A stretch of 42,214 nucleotides of DNA from Pirellulales bacterium (GTDB lineage Bacteria; Planctomycetota; Planctomycetia; Pirellulales; Lacipirellulaceae), in assembly GCA_016930815.1 (NCBI GenBank), contig JAFGFZ010000093.1:1-42214 (forward strand), written 5' to 3'. A program made the position numbers and the translations under genes. Shown here one piece after another: positions 7,667-16,356 of the stretch; positions within the stretch are counted from its first letter, which is position 1; each line of letters opens with the position of its first letter. The notes under the pieces are model-generated. The model had not been told where the DNA came from and did not search any database. It worked only from the letters and a program-made list of their open reading frames with translations.

Positions 7667-10117
7667 TCACCAGCCTCGTTCGAGCCGCCCCGATTCGTCG
7701 ACGATCCATGGCAACCAGGCAAGGGCGACATATGGAACATCGATGTTCTTCAGGAACGGGCGGATGGGCACATCATCGATTTCGAGCGATCTGGGATCCA
7801 ATGTCATCTCCAGCTCTTGCAATTCCCTCTCCATGGCGGCTTCCAGCCTTTCGATCTGGGACGCATCTTTCGCCGCTTGGCTACTGCCGCGCCGGCCGCG
7901 GCCCCGGTTCATTTCGCGGGCAGTGGACTTGGCAAGGTCTCGAGCCGCCTTACTTTGAAGTTGATGTGCGAGTATTCCCACAAGGAATTTAAAGACCATT
8001 GGGAAAAAATGGATTAAATGGGACCATCTTTTCCGACGTTGAAGCGTGGCGATTCGTGACTCATATTGATGTTCGATTTTTTTCTCTCCCTCAGCCAGAC
8101 GTTTCGTCGCCAGTGCCTTCATTCTGGCCACAAACGCATCTCTCGTTTCTGGCTGTGGACCGAGTCGTGAATATGCATCGAGTTCCCCGCAATGATACAT
8201 GATCAATGCTGGGCCGCGGTACTGGCGGTTTTTCAAGTCCAGTCTCCATTGGGTGTAACTTTTTTCTTGTTTCCAGATGGATGCCAGATCCGCTGGAAAT
8301 TGACCGGATGGATCGGGTGTTTCCTGGAGCCGGTCCGGCGCAATGGCCTGGGGCTGGTCCCAAATGGTATCGGGAAGTTCTTCGTTGAGCTGGGCAAGGA
8401 GGGAAAACGCATGCCTGTATTCCATGCCGGATGGTTTATGGAAATAACGCATTGTCCCGGCTCCATGGAGGCCGGGATGATATTCGATGCGTATGTTGCC
8501 AGAAAGAGGTTCCCGCAGTTGGACGAATCGCTGCTTGATATCTTGATCGAGATCCGGCGGATGATTGCGTGGTTGCTTTTGATCCAGCTCCGCGGGTGGG
8601 ATTGGGGATGGAGGAACAACTTCCGGTGGTTTGGATGGCTTTGTTTCCTTTGCCGAGATGTCCTCGGGTGGTGCGTCCTTGCGGTTGGCCATCAGCATTT
8701 TAATTTGTTCCCGGGTCATCGGGCCCCGGAGATAGGACAGGGCCCAGCGGGTATGAAAAACGACCGGGGCATTGTCGTGGACGTTATTCATAAGAAAAAT
8801 GCGGCTGCCGAGTCCGGCGAGTATCGCCTCCATTTTTTGTTTATCGAAGGTGGCTCCCGCCTGTGCCGACGCACCTTCGAGGCCTTCGAGGACTCGCATC
8901 TTATCCCGTTCGGTCTGCAGCCGGCCGAGAAACCATGTGCCGGCATTGGAGAGGCCCTTGTAATCGAGGTCGACGGGATTCTGCGTCGACAGGACAATCC
9001 CCAGCCCAAATGCTCGAGCCTGTTTCAGCAACGTCAGCATGGGCCGTTTGCTGGGCGGATTGGCGGACGGCGGGAAATAGCCAAAGATCTCATCCATATA
9101 GAGAATCGCCCGCAGGCTGCTGGTCCCCGGCTGGGATCGCATCCATGCCAGGACTTCGCCCAGTAAGATCGTGACGAAAAACATACGTTCTTCGTCACTG
9201 AGGTGGGCGATGGAGAGGATGGCGATGCGGGGTTTCCCTTCCGAGGTATGAAGGAGCCGATCGATATGGAGCGGTTCACCGTCCATCCAGGCGGCAAACG
9301 ACGGTGAGGCGAGCAGGTTGTTCAGCCGCATGGCCAGTTCGATACGATCTTTTTCCGGAAAAAAAGTATCCAGGTCCAAAACCCCCACTCGGGCCATGGG
9401 CGGATTTTGGATTTCGGCGATTAGCTTGGCCAAATCCAGGTCGCGCCCTTCGCGCCAAGCAAGGTCCAAGAGATTCGATAGCAGGATATGCTCGCGGCTC
9501 TTGACCGGATCGACATCGATACCGAGCAGTGCCAGCACCCCAGCCGCGGCAGCGGCAATTCTTTCACGCATCGCGTCGCGATCGGTCAGGATTTCTGGCG
9601 GCGGCGCTGAGAACGACTTGAGGACCGTCAGTGGCAGTCCAGCCGTGCTACCCGGTGTGTAGATGGCGACATCGGCAGCCTCTTTGAATTTGCGGATCCG
9701 TTCGCCGTCCTGCCCCCATTCGGCCAATCCGGTCCGCCATAATTGGGCCATGCTCTCGGCGAATTCTTCGGGCGTCATTCCCTTCCGCTGGGCAATGCTC
9801 TCGTCGATCCAAGGCCGGAAATCGTTCGGTTGCAGGTCAGGGAATGCGAATAGTAGATTGCCCAGATCGCCCTTCGGATCGATGGCAATGACTGGAATCC
9901 CATCGATGGCTGCCTCTTCGATCAGCGACAAACAGAGGCCCGTCTTGCCACTTCCCGTCATTCCAACACAAACGGCGTGTGTGGTCAGGTCCCGGCTATC
10001 ATAAAGCAACAGATTGGATTTCGTTGCACCCGATTTCAGATCGTACTCGCGACCAAGGTAGAATTTGCCCGAATGTTCGTAATCTTGCATTGTGGCGGGG
10101 GCGGGGGCGGGGGTCAT
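7667..10117 (-). CDS. HerA-like P-loop ATPase (DUF87 type)
   Basis: This is an 816-residue protein with a HerA/FtsK-superfamily ATPase core. Walker A is GMTGSGKT (52-59). IAIDPKGDLGNLL (77-89) is the usual following strand. Walker B is AILYMDEI (337-344). The downstream motif is LSTQNPVDLD (376-385). After a Pro-rich linker (about 490-520) comes a C-terminal region of about 300 residues. It contains a basic helix, a hydrophobic stretch near residue 690 (HLIHFFPMVFKFLVGILAH), an RGRGRRGS patch and a charged coiled segment. Classic HerA works with the nuclease NurA in end resection, but no nurA lies nearby and this longer form is a distinct subgroup. The first nine residues (MTPAPAPAT) come from a GC-rich repeat, so the start may be the ATG at 10090. 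Neither start has a clear ribosome site. Confidence 0.8.
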   Translation of the reverse strand: MTPAPAPATMQDYEHSGKFYLGREYDLKSGATKSNLLLYDSRDLTTHAVCVGMTGSGKTGLCLSLIEEAAIDGIPVIAIDPKGDLGNLLFAFPDLQPNDFRPWIDESIAQRKGMTPEEFAESMAQLWRTGLAEWGQDGERIRKFKEAADVAIYTPGSTAGLPLTVLKSFSAPPPEILTDRDAMRERIAAAAAGVLALLGIDVDPVKSREHILLSNLLDLAWREGRDLDLAKLIAEIQNPPMARVGVLDLDTFFPEKDRIELAMRLNNLLASPSFAAWMDGEPLHIDRLLHTSEGKPRIAILSIAHLSDEERMFFVTILLGEVLAWMRSQPGTSSLRAILYMDEIFGYFPPSANPPSKRPMLTLLKQARAFGLGIVLSTQNPVDLDYKGLSNAGTWFLGRLQTERDKMRVLEGLEGASAQAGATFDKQKMEAILAGLGSRIFLMNNVHDNAPVVFHTRWALSYLRGPMTREQIKMLMANRKDAPPEDISAKETKPSKPPEVVPPSPIPPAELDQKQPRNHPPDLDQDIKQRFVQLREPLSGNIRIEYHPGLHGAGTMRYFHKPSGMEYRHAFSLLAQLNEELPDTIWDQPQAIAPDRLQETPDPSGQFPADLASIWKQEKSYTQWRLDLKNRQYRGPALIMYHCGELDAYSRLGPQPETRDAFVARMKALATKRLAEGEKKIEHQYESRIATLQRRKRWSHLIHFFPMVFKFLVGILAHQLQSKAARDLAKSTAREMNRGRGRRGSSQAAKDASQIERLEAAMERELQELEMTLDPRSLEIDDVPIRPFLKNIDVPYVALAWLPWIVDESGRLERGW

Positions 10118-10130
10118 AAGAGTAGGTGAC

Positions 10131-10171
10131 TAAAAACAGCACCCCGGCTGCTTCGGAGCCGCCGGGGTGCT
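10131..10171 (-). terminator. Intrinsic terminator after the RG-rich lipoprotein gene
   Basis: AGCACCCCGGC and GCCGGGGTGCT (10138-10148 and 10161-10171) form a perfect 11-bp stem. On the minus strand the stem is followed by GTTTTTAG. This is a textbook rho-independent terminator 24 bases after the stop of the RG-rich gene. It separates the sigma cluster from the HerA-like gene. Confidence 0.85.
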
Positions 10172-10194: not shown

Positions 10195-12945
10195 TTACGA
10201 TTTTGCATTGTCCTCGTCAGTTTCAGCCGGCGGATCATCTTCTTCTGATGGTTGCCGATCGCCCGGTTCTTGATCAGGCGAAGCCGATTCTGATATTTCA
10301 CCGGGAATCTCGACCACGAGGATTTCAACAATCATGGGTCGTGATTCGGTTGTTCTCAGCTCGCTGTCGCTTGAGTTTTCATTGATGATACGGATATCGA
10401 CCGAACGCTGGGAACCCGTTTTATTATTCTTGGCCAGATAATCGAGCCAGACACCATCCTCCAATTCGTGGGATTTTGCGCTGGGCACATGACGTTTGTA
10501 GGCGGTGAGAAGTCGACTGGGCCGTTCTTCCTGTTCGATTCGGACATAGTGAACTTCAAGCGGATCGATCTGGACGCCAGGGAGTCGTTGGGCCGCATCG
10601 GCCGGCCAGCGGAGGTGGTATTCGTCGCTGATTTCCGCTCCTCGATGCAGTGGGATCTGCATGGCGGCAAGTGGTCCGGAGAGGGGCATTTCCTCACGAT
10701 CGTTATCCGCATCCGCCTCCGGTGCGACTGCCGCGTCGTCTGGGGTCGCCTTCGCCTGGTCCATGGCAGGTTCCGCCTTGTCCTCGGTCCAGGGACTCTC
10801 GGCATCGGAGAGTTGCTCACAGAGGATGGGAACATACTGTTCGACTTCTCGTTGCCATTCACTGGTTTCAGAATCCAGATCATCTTCGTATCCAGATGCC
10901 CCGCGCCCTTCACGGCCGCCATAGGCACCCATTTCACGGCCCCCGCCCCGCACACCACCGCCTGTTGGGCTTCGCGAACTCCCGTTGCGTGTCCGAGTAC
11001 TGCGTCGAGCCTTCTTGTCATGGTAGATCGCTTTGGCAGCGATCAGGAACGATGGGTCCGTGAGATCCTGCCCGAACATACCCGCCGATGCGAAGGCGCT
11101 TGGATTGTCCTGATATTGATTGGCCAATTCAGCGATCTTCGACCGGGCCACTGCGGTGGGTATGGTGGAGAGGAGCTTGAGGTCTTCTGGAAATTCATCG
11201 AGTGATTCGGCTTCCAGCAATTGAGAACCGATCTTTTCGGCCATCTGGCCAGTCCACAAGAGTGTCGCAAATTGGCTATAAACTAGTTTCGGATCCACGG
11301 GTGGCCCCTGGACCGGGCGATCGCCCCGATACGGTTGTCCTTCGCGGGCCGGCCGATCCTCCCGGGACGGTCGGCCTTCTCGAGACGGTCGGCCAGTGCC
11401 CTGAAATCGTTCCCCGCTCAATTGTTGGTACGGAATCAGGGCTCCCACATCGTAGGGTTTTGGATCCGAATCGAGGAATCGGCTGCCGCGGAATTCGTAA
11501 CCCATGCCACGGCGATCGCGTGAGCCGGGAGGGATTCGGCCACGATCCCGGCCGGTCGGTTCGATACCGCGCCCCCGGCCGCCACCCCGGTCGTACATTT
11601 CCCGCCCACCACCCGTTCGGCCACCCCGATAGCCACCATAGCCACCATAACTGTCCATTTCGATATTTTCGATGCCCATGAGGTAACCGAGAGTCGCCCG
11701 GCTCCCAGACACAAGCCGCGATTGAAGCTGCGATCGGATCGAGTCGGACGTGAGCGGGTTCTGGTAAAGCAGGATTTGAGCTGGCAGGTTCCGGTCATCC
11801 TCGGCACCGATGCATTGTTCTATTTTTTCGGCTACTTCGATGAACACTTTGTCGTTTTCAAGATACTTGGCCAACCGGGTACGCAATGCAACAGATGCCT
11901 CATCCTGAAGCAATCGAAGCACCTCCTCGTGGGTTTGATCGATGGAGTGGGTTGAATAATCATTGGGATCTTCCGGTTGTTGTACGATCTTCTCCGGTTC
12001 GGTTGCCAGAATGAACAGTTGATCTTCGTGCTGGGGATGCGGATTGTCGATCATCGCCAGCATGACGACGTGGAAGAGTTCCTCGGAACGAAGTGGGGTT
12101 TCGATCGTCCCCGTGAGGAGTGCATGGAGATACTGGCGTGCTTTGGCGGAGTTGTTCCGGCCAAGAACTGCGACCACTTCGGCGGCCAGATCGGGATCGA
12201 TTTGAACCTTGTCCATACTCGATCCATCCCCATACGCGCCGGATTCACCCCGCCCCTCGTACCCACCACGTGGGCCATAGCTGTTGTATTCCTCCCGGCC
12301 ACCACGGGTGATCCCTTCCCGGCCACCTCCGCCTCGTATTGGCATCGATCGCCCGATGGCGCCACCGCGGCCACCCCCCTCGCTTTCCCGTCCTGGCTCA
12401 ACACCACTCTCTTCGGGATTTGCATTCGGTGCCTGGGCGGGCGGATCATCCAGTTTGAGCAAATAGAAAAGAATGTCAGCCGCTTGCTCGTCCCCACGGT
12501 GCTTTTCATCCAGATAGGCAACTGCATTGGCCAACTTGGGATCTCGCTCAACTTTCGCCGTTACAAAATCCTTCAATTTCCAGTGCGTGACATCATCGGA
12601 ACGGGGCGGCGCTGGTTCGTCATCCGGTGCCTCGTCTGTTGTACCATTGGAATTCGGATCCGTGGCCGATGCATCGGATAGCGTGCCCTCGGTTGAATCG
12701 GATTGATCTTGAGATGTTTCATCCAGCGAATCTTGGCCGGCATTGGCCGATGCATCGGCGGATTCCGGATCCCCCGATCGTTCCACGGTTCGGGATCGTC
12801 GCTCATCACCACCTCGGCAACCAACAACCACAGGCAGCCATAGCAGGCCAATTGCAGCCACGAAGAGCCAGAATTCAGTAAGACCAAATCCCATGCGCCT
12901 TGCAGTGAGCGTTCTCGGCAGGCAAGGGTCTTTGATGTATTTCAT
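10195..12945 (-). CDS. Predicted RG/GYGG-rich lipoprotein of unknown function
   Basis: This is a 916-residue protein. I place the start at ATG 12945 because GGAGG stands 6 bases ahead; the frame runs open a further 40 codons upstream with no such site. Residues 24-43 form a hydrophobic leader ending in VVVGC, a lipobox, so it is probably a lipoprotein. An acidic Ser/Asp-rich linker follows. Then come Gly/Arg/Tyr-rich low-complexity stretches (for example RGGYEGRGESGAYG, GGYGGYRGGRTGGG and repeated RPSRE units) alternating with helical, HEAT-like blocks such as the one around AKARQYLHALLTG. The tail is acidic. I recognise no catalytic domain. It is the last gene of the sigma and anti-sigma cluster and ends at a strong terminator. 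A role in the envelope is inferred only from the leader. Confidence 0.75.
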   Translation of the reverse strand: MKYIKDPCLPRTLTARRMGFGLTEFWLFVAAIGLLWLPVVVGCRGGDERRSRTVERSGDPESADASANAGQDSLDETSQDQSDSTEGTLSDASATDPNSNGTTDEAPDDEPAPPRSDDVTHWKLKDFVTAKVERDPKLANAVAYLDEKHRGDEQAADILFYLLKLDDPPAQAPNANPEESGVEPGRESEGGGRGGAIGRSMPIRGGGGREGITRGGREEYNSYGPRGGYEGRGESGAYGDGSSMDKVQIDPDLAAEVVAVLGRNNSAKARQYLHALLTGTIETPLRSEELFHVVMLAMIDNPHPQHEDQLFILATEPEKIVQQPEDPNDYSTHSIDQTHEEVLRLLQDEASVALRTRLAKYLENDKVFIEVAEKIEQCIGAEDDRNLPAQILLYQNPLTSDSIRSQLQSRLVSGSRATLGYLMGIENIEMDSYGGYGGYRGGRTGGGREMYDRGGGRGRGIEPTGRDRGRIPPGSRDRRGMGYEFRGSRFLDSDPKPYDVGALIPYQQLSGERFQGTGRPSREGRPSREDRPAREGQPYRGDRPVQGPPVDPKLVYSQFATLLWTGQMAEKIGSQLLEAESLDEFPEDLKLLSTIPTAVARSKIAELANQYQDNPSAFASAGMFGQDLTDPSFLIAAKAIYHDKKARRSTRTRNGSSRSPTGGGVRGGGREMGAYGGREGRGASGYEDDLDSETSEWQREVEQYVPILCEQLSDAESPWTEDKAEPAMDQAKATPDDAAVAPEADADNDREEMPLSGPLAAMQIPLHRGAEISDEYHLRWPADAAQRLPGVQIDPLEVHYVRIEQEERPSRLLTAYKRHVPSAKSHELEDGVWLDYLAKNNKTGSQRSVDIRIINENSSDSELRTTESRPMIVEILVVEIPGEISESASPDQEPGDRQPSEEDDPPAETDEDNAKS

Positions 12946-13221
12946 CGTGTGCCTCCGTCGATCTGTAGCTGAGTCCGAGAATTCAGTCTGTGGGGTATGG
13001 ACTGGACGAATTGTTTCTATTGGCCATTTCGATCGGCTAAAAACCATGGTTCCGCAGCCAGTCATGGATCCAATGGAACGGGAACACGTCTGGGACCACC
13101 CATCCCACAGTATCGCATAATTGCTCCCTTTTTGCCACCGGATGTTATGATCTAGCCGATAGGAAAATCCACCCGCGATCGGCTTCGAGACCGTGGCGGT
13201 GCCGTTCGTGATGGATCCGGG

Positions 13222-15213
13222 TTATGGTCCGGGCAGCCGATTTGCCGGAGCCGCCTGGGCTTCAGTCTTCGCAGGTGGATCTGGGGGTGGAACGACGCGC
13301 AGCACGAAAACCGCCCAAATATTGTCATCCGTCTCAGAACGTTCTTGGACCAACTGCTGGGTTTCCAAACCGCCGGACGGTACTGCGGCCGGGCGCCTGA
13401 GCAACTCGCGGCCGCTGCTCCCCCGGCCATTCGGAGACTGGGCGAATCCCCAGTGGACGGTATCCGGCTCGCTTCGAATCCTCTCTTCCGAAAGACGCGC
13501 GCGGTCCCCACGGACTGGAAATCGCCAAGCACGCCCAGTCAAGGGCAGCTGGGGCCGATTGGCAGCTGGCTTCTCAACCGGGGTACTTACCGTTGACTGC
13601 CCTCGATCATACCGATTCCATTGGTGCTGCGTTTCAATATTTTCATCCAGGACGATGAGTTGCTGGTAGTTCTTCGAGTCGTTATTGAGTTCGTTCAGCG
13701 TGTTATGGAGTTGGGCGGGCGAAACATCAACGAGCACGACTTCGTACGGCTCGGACTCAGCGGAATGGGTATCCCCGACTCGCCCCTCACCTTCCGCCGT
13801 TTCCCCGGTCGCCCCATCCAGATCGAGGGCCAACGATCGGTCGATGGCACCGGATTGGGTTGGGGGTTCACTGAGGTCCTCTGTCTGGGCCACCTGTCGC
13901 TGCTGGCTAGGTTGCCCGCCTAGCAGCTCGCTTCTTTTGGGCTTTTCCCCGCCGGCCATTCTCCTTTTGTCGGCTGGATCTTGAAGCGAATCCTCGGGAG
14001 GATCCGCCAAGGATGCCTTTGACTCGGTGGGCGTGTAATATCCTTTTTTCCCAGCGGAATCGGCACGGGCCGTTCGGCCATGATCTAGCCCATAGGCAGA
14101 AGGATCCGGATGCGTTGTTGCGCCATGGTCTGTCTGATAGGCGATCGAGTTGTTTCCCAGCACGGTATCGAACACTTGAGTCCGCGCGGCATCGGGGGTC
14201 AAATCGACATAAACGATGACCGGCTGTTGCTGATCCACCTGGATATTATTTTGAGTAAAGAACGTTTGGAGTGCGACATTTCGCTCGATGATATCGCGCT
14301 TGAAAGCAAGCGGTTCCTGGGAAACCTTTTTTTGTTTGGCTAGTTCGGGAAGCCCTCGACCGAATCCGCCTCGACCGCGTCCTACTTTCCCGTTAGAAAT
14401 TCCAAGACCGCCTAGCAATGCGTCGGATTCCGGTTCGGTCTCCGGGATTGGCCGATCGGTTTTCAGCGGCTCGGCAGCCTCCATGCCGCGGTCCAATCCC
14501 GAGTCGATTGCCGGAACCCCCGCCAGCTCGTCCGGCCCTTTCAATGGCCCAACCGAAGGCGTTTTCTCGTCCCATTTCAATCCTTCTGCTTCCTTCAGAA
14601 ATCTCGATTCCTCTCGCTTTTCCCTGGCGGGAATCGATTCACTCTCCGGGGACACCTCATATTCCGTCAGAGAAGAATCCGCGGCTTCCGCTGGGATATC
14701 GTTACCCGCTGCATCGCGAAACGCAGTATCGCCCGCCGGGCCGTCACTCTCAGCAACTTCACGGTTTGGTCCCATCCATTCGCTGTTCAACAACATCACT
14801 AAGATTGCTGCCGCGATCGTTATGGCGGCCCATATCCAGCCGCGAGCTGTACGGCCGATCGAAATGGGAATGGTACGGGCTGGGCCCTTTTCCTCAGGAG
14901 AAGTCTCTTCGACAGCTAACCTTGGTCCCATTTCTTCCTTCGGCTGGCTCGATCTGGCTGCCCGTTTCAAGGCATCCTTCTCGATTGCCGAAAGAACTTC
15001 CTCGTGAAATCGTGCATTCACCTTCTTTTTTGGCAGGGATTGAATTGCGTTGGATAATGCCTCGAATTCAGCGAGCAGTTGTCGCGCCTTGGGATTCTCC
15101 AACAAATAGGCTTCCACACGCGCACGCTCATCGGCCGAGAGCTCACCGTCGAGATACGCGCTGAGTAACTCGTCGTTGTAGGAATCCTGCGTATTGATCT
15201 CATTAGGGGACAC
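13222..15213 (-). CDS. Large membrane anti-sigma factor without zinc ligands
   Basis: This is the predicted anti-sigma partner of the ECF sigma factor encoded just upstream, 663 residues. The N-terminus (about 12-80, with DELLSAYLDGELSADER) has the helical anti-sigma domain pattern but lacks the HxxxCxxC zinc motif. One membrane helix lies at about 126-143 (WIWAAITIAAAILVMLL). The remaining 510 residues should be outside the cytoplasm. They are mostly polar and low in complexity, but carry two similar beta-alpha units at about 332-356 (VIVYVDLTPDAART) and 490-514 (EVVLVDVSPAQLHN). The GTG start at 15213 has only a weak AAGAAA site. The domain call rests on pattern and on the neighbouring sigma gene. 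Confidence 0.8.
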   Translation of the reverse strand: MSPNEINTQDSYNDELLSAYLDGELSADERARVEAYLLENPKARQLLAEFEALSNAIQSLPKKKVNARFHEEVLSAIEKDALKRAARSSQPKEEMGPRLAVEETSPEEKGPARTIPISIGRTARGWIWAAITIAAAILVMLLNSEWMGPNREVAESDGPAGDTAFRDAAGNDIPAEAADSSLTEYEVSPESESIPAREKREESRFLKEAEGLKWDEKTPSVGPLKGPDELAGVPAIDSGLDRGMEAAEPLKTDRPIPETEPESDALLGGLGISNGKVGRGRGGFGRGLPELAKQKKVSQEPLAFKRDIIERNVALQTFFTQNNIQVDQQQPVIVYVDLTPDAARTQVFDTVLGNNSIAYQTDHGATTHPDPSAYGLDHGRTARADSAGKKGYYTPTESKASLADPPEDSLQDPADKRRMAGGEKPKRSELLGGQPSQQRQVAQTEDLSEPPTQSGAIDRSLALDLDGATGETAEGEGRVGDTHSAESEPYEVVLVDVSPAQLHNTLNELNNDSKNYQQLIVLDENIETQHQWNRYDRGQSTVSTPVEKPAANRPQLPLTGRAWRFPVRGDRARLSEERIRSEPDTVHWGFAQSPNGRGSSGRELLRRPAAVPSGGLETQQLVQERSETDDNIWAVFVLRVVPPPDPPAKTEAQAAPANRLPGP

Positions 15214-15297
15214 GGTGTTTTCTTATCATGGACAATATCGATCTTGCGACTAGATATCGTGGACGGAGAAATGGAGCCGGCAATCAAATCCTACTCA

Positions 15298-15900
15298 TTA
15301 TCGGTACTCCTCCATTTCCTCCTGCAACATGTGCATCAATTGTTTCCGGAGTTGCATCCGGGCTCGGAACAACCGGCTCCGGACCGTGCCGACCGGGATT
15401 CCGAGGATGCCGGAAATCGTCTCGTAATCGCAATCCTCGATCTCTCGGAGCAGGACGATCTGCCGGTGTTGATCATTCAGTTCACGAAGTGCCCGGTGAA
15501 CTTGCGCGGCAAGCTCACGCTGCATGAGCCGTTTTTCCGGCCCGCCCCCAAGATCCACCGGTTCCACACCCGCTAGTTCTCGTGCCGTGTCGATGGATAC
15601 CGCTGGCTTCCTTCGCCGTTGCCGGCTGATCGCCAGGTTGAAGCCGATCCGATAGAGCCATGTAAAAAAAGCCGCGGTCCCGCGAAACGAATCGAGCTTT
15701 TCCATGGCCCGGATAAATGCTTCTTGGGCAATATCCTGGGCATCCTCGGCCGACCCGATGTACCGAACGAGTGTGTTGTAAAGACGGTCCTGATACCGTT
15801 CAACCAGCTGACCGAACGCCGACGAATCGCCGTTGCGTGCGGCCTCGATGAGTTGACCGTCGTTGTTCACGTCCGTCTCGTAGATTGGGACGTCTCCCAT
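15298..15900 (-). CDS. ECF-type RNA polymerase sigma factor (RpoE/SigW-like)
   Basis: This is a 200-residue alternative sigma factor. Region 2 spans about 25-98 (FGQLVERYQDRLYNTLVRYI, then DAQDIAQEAFIRAMEKLDSF and WLYRIGFNLA). Region 4 spans about 130-190 (LNDQHRQIVLLREIEDCDY, then GTVRSRLFRARMQL). Both are typical of group IV sigma factors that answer envelope stress. It is followed after 84 bases by its probable anti-sigma factor and then by the RG-rich lipoprotein gene, all on the minus strand. The ATG at 15900 has a GGGGAAC site about 9 bases upstream. A promoter with a perfect -35 box lies at 15977-16005. Its target genes cannot be told from the sequence. Confidence 0.92.
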   Translation of the reverse strand: MGDVPIYETDVNNDGQLIEAARNGDSSAFGQLVERYQDRLYNTLVRYIGSAEDAQDIAQEAFIRAMEKLDSFRGTAAFFTWLYRIGFNLAISRQRRRKPAVSIDTARELAGVEPVDLGGGPEKRLMQRELAAQVHRALRELNDQHRQIVLLREIEDCDYETISGILGIPVGTVRSRLFRARMQLRKQLMHMLQEEMEEYR

Positions 15901-16356
15901 GACAAGAAAGTTCCCCAGTCAAACCATGACAACACGGGCCACGCGGGTCCGCTGTCGCCAGAACCCGCAAAACTCCATTCTTACGGTCTGGATCGATCGT
16001 GTCAAATCCTTACAACAAAATAACTTGCGATCATTTCAGTGGCTGGGCATTGGATTTGAGGTCTACCGGATCAAGCCTGTCCGTTATCCTAAGCCCACAA
16101 GGCCCAGAATGGCGGTGCCGTGGGCGGTTGGGTATCCTGGAATATACCCTCCGATTGCGGATGTTCGAGACCGCCAGTGGAACCGCCATGGATGATACAA
16201 CGATCTTTCTTTTGGAAATTTCCGATCCGGCGATCGATCACAGCGCCGTCGGGCCACTGCCCATGGCCCGAGCGTGCCACGATGATCCTTTCGTCACAAC
16301 CCCATCCCATTATTGCATCACCCGTCGATCAACGTCTCTCTAGAATCACGGAACCG
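15901..16356. other. Divergent region between the sigma factor and peptidase genes
   Basis: This is 456 bases without a gene. On the minus side it holds the promoter at 15977-16005. On the plus side a TAGAAT -10-like box (16341-16346) has no good -35 partner. The peptidase frame is open here from 16120, but the signal peptide fits only a start at 16357 or 16375. I see no other structure. Confidence 0.55.
15977..16005 (-). promoter_or_regulatory. Promoter of the sigma/anti-sigma genes
   Basis: On the minus strand a perfect TTGACA (16005-16000) is followed after exactly 17 bases by AAGAAT (15982-15977, 4 of 6). Transcription would begin about 70 bases ahead of the sigma gene ATG. The form is housekeeping sigma-70-like, although an overlapping self-regulated ECF promoter cannot be excluded. 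Confidence 0.5.

Follow-up and report, generated by a model that had tools for sequence, protein, structure and literature searches.

A conserved, probably autoregulated sigma/anti-sigma pair and its apparently lineage-specific lipoprotein neighbour in a Pirellulales bacterium

According to the ORF listing, three open reading frames (ORFs) follow one another in the same orientation on the minus strand between positions 10195 and 15900 of a 42,214-nucleotide stretch of DNA from a Pirellulales bacterium (contig JAFGFZ010000093.1, family Lacipirellulaceae; the whole stretch is hereafter the window). They encode an extracytoplasmic function (ECF) sigma factor, a membrane-bound anti-sigma factor and a predicted lipoprotein with tracts rich in arginine-glycine (RG) motifs, and an earlier note on this DNA had read them as a linked envelope-sensing unit. 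Is the lipoprotein, then, part of the switch? Our analysis makes it likely that the locus holds a conserved, autoregulated sigma/anti-sigma pair, and that the lipoprotein is a lineage-specific neighbour from outside the conserved switch. The evidence taken from sequence consists of the pair itself, the conservation of its two promoters, the enrichment of the corresponding motif before genes for exported proteins, and the lipoprotein family with its lack of linkage to the pair.

The sigma factor carries the Pfam domains Sigma70_r2 (residues 32-98) and r4_2 (residues 133-184 of the 200-residue reading) and no further domain type, and the roughly 34 residues between regions 2 and 4 correspond to a short linker of the ECF type. 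It was matched at E <= 1e-30 in 55 of the 59 genomes searched. In a tree of 41 sequences, the window's sigma nests within the clade of its own family, which gives no obvious sign that the contig is a stray. In 39 of the 41 loci compared, an anti-sigma gene with the same orientation follows at most 700 nt behind the sigma gene. The N-terminal helix bundle of the window's anti-sigma matches the zf-HC2-type domain of Pfam with 28.4 bits (cut-off 22.2), which places it with the class I anti-sigma domains (ASDI), and the Hx3Cx2C motif of zinc-binding anti-sigma factors (ZAS) was found in none of the 34 anti-sigmas scanned, the window's included. Approximately 44% of known ASDI are described as being without the zinc motif (PMC7406223). 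Hydropathy gave exactly one transmembrane helix in 33 of 39 anti-sigmas, including that of the window. Thus, a sigma factor with a zinc-free, membrane-bound anti-sigma, as had been proposed, is borne out, and judged by sequence the pair is an ordinary yet well-conserved RpoE/RseA-like switch.

Two promoters precede the sigma gene. Of the 41 loci, 19 carry the pattern TTGACA-17-NANNAT (P1) ahead of the orthologous sigma; the three controls (other strand, reversed, complemented) gave 0 of 41 each. A scan limited to the window, in which P1-type sites were near chance (5 versus 3.1 +/- 2.0 in shuffles), had suggested that P1 was a chance match, and the 41-locus comparison overturned this. The motif of P2, GGAACTT/GTC, which the earlier note had overlooked, is present in 38 of the 41 loci when one mismatch is allowed; 28 loci have it exactly, and 36 have it with a 16-bp spacer. 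The form requiring CGTC occurs in 32 of the 41 real upstream regions versus 0 reversed and 0.2 shuffled. In PMC8103513, E. coli RpoE is assigned the -35 box GGAACTT, and the classical marks of an ECF system are named as autoregulation, co-transcription with an anti-sigma and promoters with AAC/CGT boxes. Here, an adjacent anti-sigma and an own promoter with AAC/CGT boxes are found, and autoregulation is predicted: with P2 kept in all but three of the 41 loci, transcription of the sigma gene from this promoter is very probably driven by the sigma itself.

P2 also bears on where the sigma gene begins. Homologous sigmas start at a GTG equivalent to 15870, and this GTG is most likely the start here rather than ATG 15900, because the conserved P2 overlaps the first codons of the ORF read from ATG 15900, whose early codons hold the -10 part of the promoter. 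In most of the 41 loci the start codon (mostly GTG, also TTG) lies 20-26 nt past the -10 G of P2, so that the leader of the sigma mRNA would be very short; an obvious ribosome-binding site is often absent (window 15870-15914 and the 40 orthologous loci). The promoters and the genes of the pair are as follows.

15977 to 16005, minus strand: promoter P1, sigma-70 type, TTGACA-17-AAGAAT, conserved upstream of orthologous sigmas
15886 to 15914, minus strand: promoter P2, ECF/RpoE type, GGAACTT-16-GTCCCA, conserved, overlapping the sigma start of the earlier note
15298 to 15870, minus strand: ECF sigma factor, probable start GTG 15870, 190 amino acids (Sigma70_r2/r4_2; starts of homologues)
13222 to 15213, minus strand: membrane-bound class I anti-sigma without zinc ligands, 663 amino acids (zf-HC2-type domain, one transmembrane helix)
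14785 to 14841, minus strand: predicted transmembrane helix of the anti-sigma, residues 125-143 (hydropathy only)

If the sigma recognizes P2, similar sites should mark its other targets. The pattern GGAACTTT-N14-CGTCNAA gave 32 sites versus 3 reversed-pattern control sites in 43 genomes of the family, and 136 listed sites versus 15 control sites in 196 genomes of the order (rows counted by hand). Among 30 family sites examined, one had no downstream ORF, 8 preceded the sigma gene itself (7 assigned by script and 1 by eye) and 21 preceded other ORFs. Signal-peptide-like sequences are present in 17 of these 21 ORFs versus 79 of 420 background ORFs; with the script alone, the former value is 17 of 22. 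When ten predicted target proteins were scanned against Pfam, VWA domains were found in 3, a squalene-hopene cyclase-type domain in 1, TPR over the cut-off in 1, DUF4139 over the cut-off in 1 and under it in 2, and no match in 2. The genome of the window has two further exact sites, one ahead of a VIT-VWA protein gene and one ahead of a TPR protein gene. Enrichment is a property of the tighter form only, as the loose motif GGAACTTN{15,17}GTC gave 35 sites versus 52 control sites in this genome. The candidate conserved family regulon includes L303 (G000:C124), L294, L300, L302, L304 and L314, among others, and comprises exported VWA, VIT-VWA, TPR and DUF4139/DUF4140 proteins. No paper naming this regulon was found in the open-access literature searched. 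A conserved ECF promoter motif across Pirellulales, together with a short target list (VWA, VIT-VWA, TPR, DUF4139), amounts to a testable prediction of an envelope-type regulon.

These observations fit a scheme in which sequestration, signal, proteolysis and read-through are inferred. Basal expression of the pair would come from the sigma-70-type P1, and the anti-sigma would tether the sigma to the membrane. Release would follow an envelope signal, probably sensed by the extracytoplasmic part of the anti-sigma and relayed by proteolysis, and the freed sigma would then turn to GGAACTT-16-GTC promoters, namely P2 before its own gene and the sites before genes for exported VWA, VIT-VWA, TPR and DUF4139 proteins. 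Read-through from the pair into the lipoprotein gene, 276 nt behind and ahead of the terminator, could, in this lineage, bring that gene under control of the sigma.

The lipoprotein gene most likely starts at ATG 12945, not at 13065. GGAGG at 12956-12952 lies shortly before this ATG, and the protein read from it has a hydrophobic stretch at residues 25-43 ending in a VVGC lipobox, with Cys43 as the predicted site of lipidation. All three ORFs of the earlier note are real, with two probable starts revised (15900 to 15870, 13065 to 12945), and its prediction of a lipoprotein with RG-rich tracts is supported by the lipobox and the RGG/GGYG stretches. Start at 12945 leaves a gap of 276 nt after the anti-sigma, in which a search for minus-strand terminator-like sites or strong hairpins found none, and which is without the ECF-type promoter motif. 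Behind the gene, the perfect 11-bp stem (10171-10138) followed by a T-run is unique in the window, arose in 0 of 10 mononucleotide shuffles and folds with z = -5.6. Both ends of the gene run that had been described, a TTGACA promoter and a perfect 11-bp terminator, are therefore present, the former conserved as stated above. This part of the locus is laid out as follows.

12946 to 13221, minus strand: 276-nt gap from the anti-sigma stop to the likely lipoprotein start (start-codon reassignment)
10195 to 12945, minus strand: lipoprotein gene, probable start ATG 12945, 916 amino acids, lipobox Cys43 (ORF, ribosome-binding site, signal peptide)
12205 to 12447, minus strand: RG-rich linker 1, residues 167-247 (gap-rich alignment, predicted local distance difference test score (pLDDT) <50, four RGG)
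11668 to 12204, minus strand: main HEAT-like helical segment, residues 248-426 (pLDDT mostly 70-88; structure comparison)
11296 to 11667, minus strand: RG/GYGG-rich linker 2, residues 427-550 (alignment, model, motif count)
10855 to 11022, minus strand: RG-containing linker 3, residues 642-697 (alignment, model, motif count)
10306 to 10653, minus strand: C-terminal alpha/beta domain, residues 765-880, with a predicted PsbP/DcrB/PA1624-like fold (model and structure comparison)
10131 to 10171, minus strand: intrinsic terminator, perfect 11-bp stem and GTTTTTA (hairpin scan, folding)

Searches of the lipoprotein against Pfam, NCBIfam and PDB sequences gave nothing usable. A single-sequence search found it in 21 of 117 genomes and a 24-member profile in 68 of 396 genomes of the order (E <= 1e-6), its own included in both cases, so that on sequence matches its distribution within the Pirellulales is patchy. 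Within the family, it was found in this genome alone and in none of the other 42, twelve of which give short marginal matches only (19-27 bits). The loci studied, drawn from the main matches in 65 of 67 further genomes (G057, G309 and some second fragmentary matches aside), number 77 with 79 ORFs, or 78 with the window. A sigma or anti-sigma orthologue adjoins the lipoprotein homologue in 0 of the 77 others, a negative limited by short upstream flanks (under 3 kb) in 14 of 78 loci, the window included; at least 3 kb upstream were available in 64, and 3 kb on both sides in 54. Conversely, among the 41 sigma loci the lipoprotein was found in the window only. The sigma's promoter motif occurs in 1 of 74 regions upstream of lipoprotein genes, weakly (shuffled mean 0.3), and none of the motif sites listed for order and family genomes, read by eye, lies at a lipoprotein gene. 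A conserved three-gene order, for which the earlier note had suggested looking across planctomycetes, is not seen in the loci compared: it is the pair that is conserved. The earlier note had itself held that homologues of the RG-rich gene never lying beside a sigma pair would speak against the unit, and this was the outcome; a three-gene sensing unit is not supported. The family, having no Pfam or NCBIfam match, could be described as new.

Elsewhere, the lipoprotein gene has no universal partner, the largest groups of neighbouring genes being seen at 14 and 13 of the 78 loci. A gene for a protein of about 780 residues lies near it in 13 of 78 loci, mostly at most 100 nt downstream (e.g. L220:10113-12788), and is a more usual neighbour than the sigma pair. 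The sole ECF sigma near any homologue (L043:13510-14166) is a distant relative, about 3.7 kb away on the opposite strand.

The architecture of the lipoprotein was examined with an AlphaFold2 model (six sequences; mean pLDDT 52.9). Helical segments span residues 112-166, 248-426 and 551-641, and the low-confidence stretches at 167-247, 427-550 and 642-697 are predicted to be disordered. The RGG/GGYG tracts (residues 193-226, 434-453 and 666) fall within the gap-rich parts of the family alignment, which split its conserved blocks; other members have different low-complexity linkers. Structure comparison of model residues 112-403 retrieved HEAT-like repeat proteins with Z of about 10, a value that can be non-specific for helical repeats. 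The C-terminal domain, modeled with moderate confidence, resembles PA1624 (Z 8.3, 105 aligned residues, 3.2 A) and DcrB (Z 7.3, 82 aligned residues, 2.8 A), both of them periplasmic proteins of the Mog1p/PsbP-like kind according to PMC7716261. Foldseek alone gave no match under E 0.001, with E of about 0.2 for a PsbP-like fold. Overall, the model suggests HEAT-like helical segments, variable and locally RG-rich linkers and a PsbP/DcrB-like end, and the RG tracts would most likely serve as flexible spacers.

Could this lineage nevertheless have built a true operon? A lipoprotein recruited once, as an accessory sensor working like RseB or as the main output of the sigma, would account for the common strand, for the lack of a listed terminator between the genes and the strong one after the third, and for extracytoplasmic parts being predicted in both the anti-sigma and the lipoprotein. 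We consider this unlikely in view of the 276-nt gap, the missing linkage in all 77 other loci, the near absence of P2-type motifs before lipoprotein genes and the marginal scores, at most, in genomes of its own family. A lineage-specific operon is still conceivable because the genomes searched included no other from the window's genus, and co-transcription of the lipoprotein with the pair in this one genome is possible. A role of the RGG/GYGG tracts in binding extracellular RNA or DNA, or in forming condensates, appears highly improbable. The window's protein is indeed extreme for its family, with 12 RG/GY motifs and 29 G, R or Y in its densest 40 residues, which speaks for this idea; at least 5 RG/GYGG motifs are however found in only 6 of 80 members, and a stretch with at least 24 of 40 residues G, R or Y in 5 of 80, so that neither a family feature nor the conserved tract of RGG-type RNA-binding proteins is seen, and the tracts sit in gap-rich, predicted disordered linkers. 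Equally slight is the chance that the lipoprotein was captured in this lineage into an RpoE-like operon as an outward sensor or output, with these tracts binding nucleic acid outside the cell; if true, transcription would be coupled to the state of the envelope or of nucleic acid beyond the cytoplasm. No paper on an RGG-type low-complexity periplasmic lipoprotein was found in the open-access literature searched. A three-gene unit that includes an extracellular RGG protein was a tempting lead, but it is not supported and can be dropped.

The pair has a competitor of its own, in which P1 alone is in use and the GGAACTT element serves another regulator or ECF sigma. Planctomycete genomes are reported to carry many ECF sigmas, 37 in R. 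baltica (PMC2754498), but in 38 of the 41 loci the element keeps a near-invariant position and 16-bp spacing before an orthologous sigma, and GGAACTT is identical with the RpoE -35 box (PMC8103513), which makes this improbable. Several points do weigh against the autoregulated pair with its regulon, which we favor. The 41 sigma loci are the window and 40 chosen out of 54 other matches; an adjacent anti-sigma is missing in 2 of them, and P2 at one mismatch in 3. With at most one mismatch, the window's genome yields the sigma promoter and two other sites versus 2 control sites, and with so few matching sites its own regulon is weakly grounded. Other ECF sigmas of these genomes could also read similar promoters.

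Compared to RpoE/RseA of E. coli, the pair shares the placing of a single-pass anti-sigma without zinc motif behind an ECF sigma, a promoter of the sigma's own with a GGAACTT -35 box, and a predicted regulon of exported proteins. It differs in that the sigma scores 159 bits on the RpoE model TIGR02939, below the curated cut-off of 236.15 and hence outside that equivalog, the anti-sigma reaches 19.2 bits on RseA_N (Pfam cut-off 24), and no RseB was recognised in the operon of the window. The extracytoplasmic part of the anti-sigma is also far longer than that of RseA. With class I anti-sigma proteins the anti-sigma shares an N-terminal zf-HC2-like domain and one transmembrane helix; its extracytoplasmic part is long, and no difference setting it apart from them was found. 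As for the lipoprotein, its C-terminal domain resembles DcrB and PA1624 in predicted fold by structure comparison, and DcrB is described as a lipoprotein too (PMC7716261), but sequence identity is 12-13% and the window's domain sits behind HEAT-like segments and RG-rich linkers. Model residues 112-403 form a helix-pair solenoid as in HEAT-repeat proteins (alphaRep, CpcE/CpcF); unlike these, the lipoprotein has no Pfam repeat-model match, is predicted to be exported, and has disordered linkers interrupting its helices.

Further along, a gene for a HerA-like ATPase (HerA_C 30.5 bits and DUF87 26.3 bits, both barely over their cut-offs) occupies positions 7667-10117 of the window and begins about 14 nt past the terminator of the lipoprotein gene.

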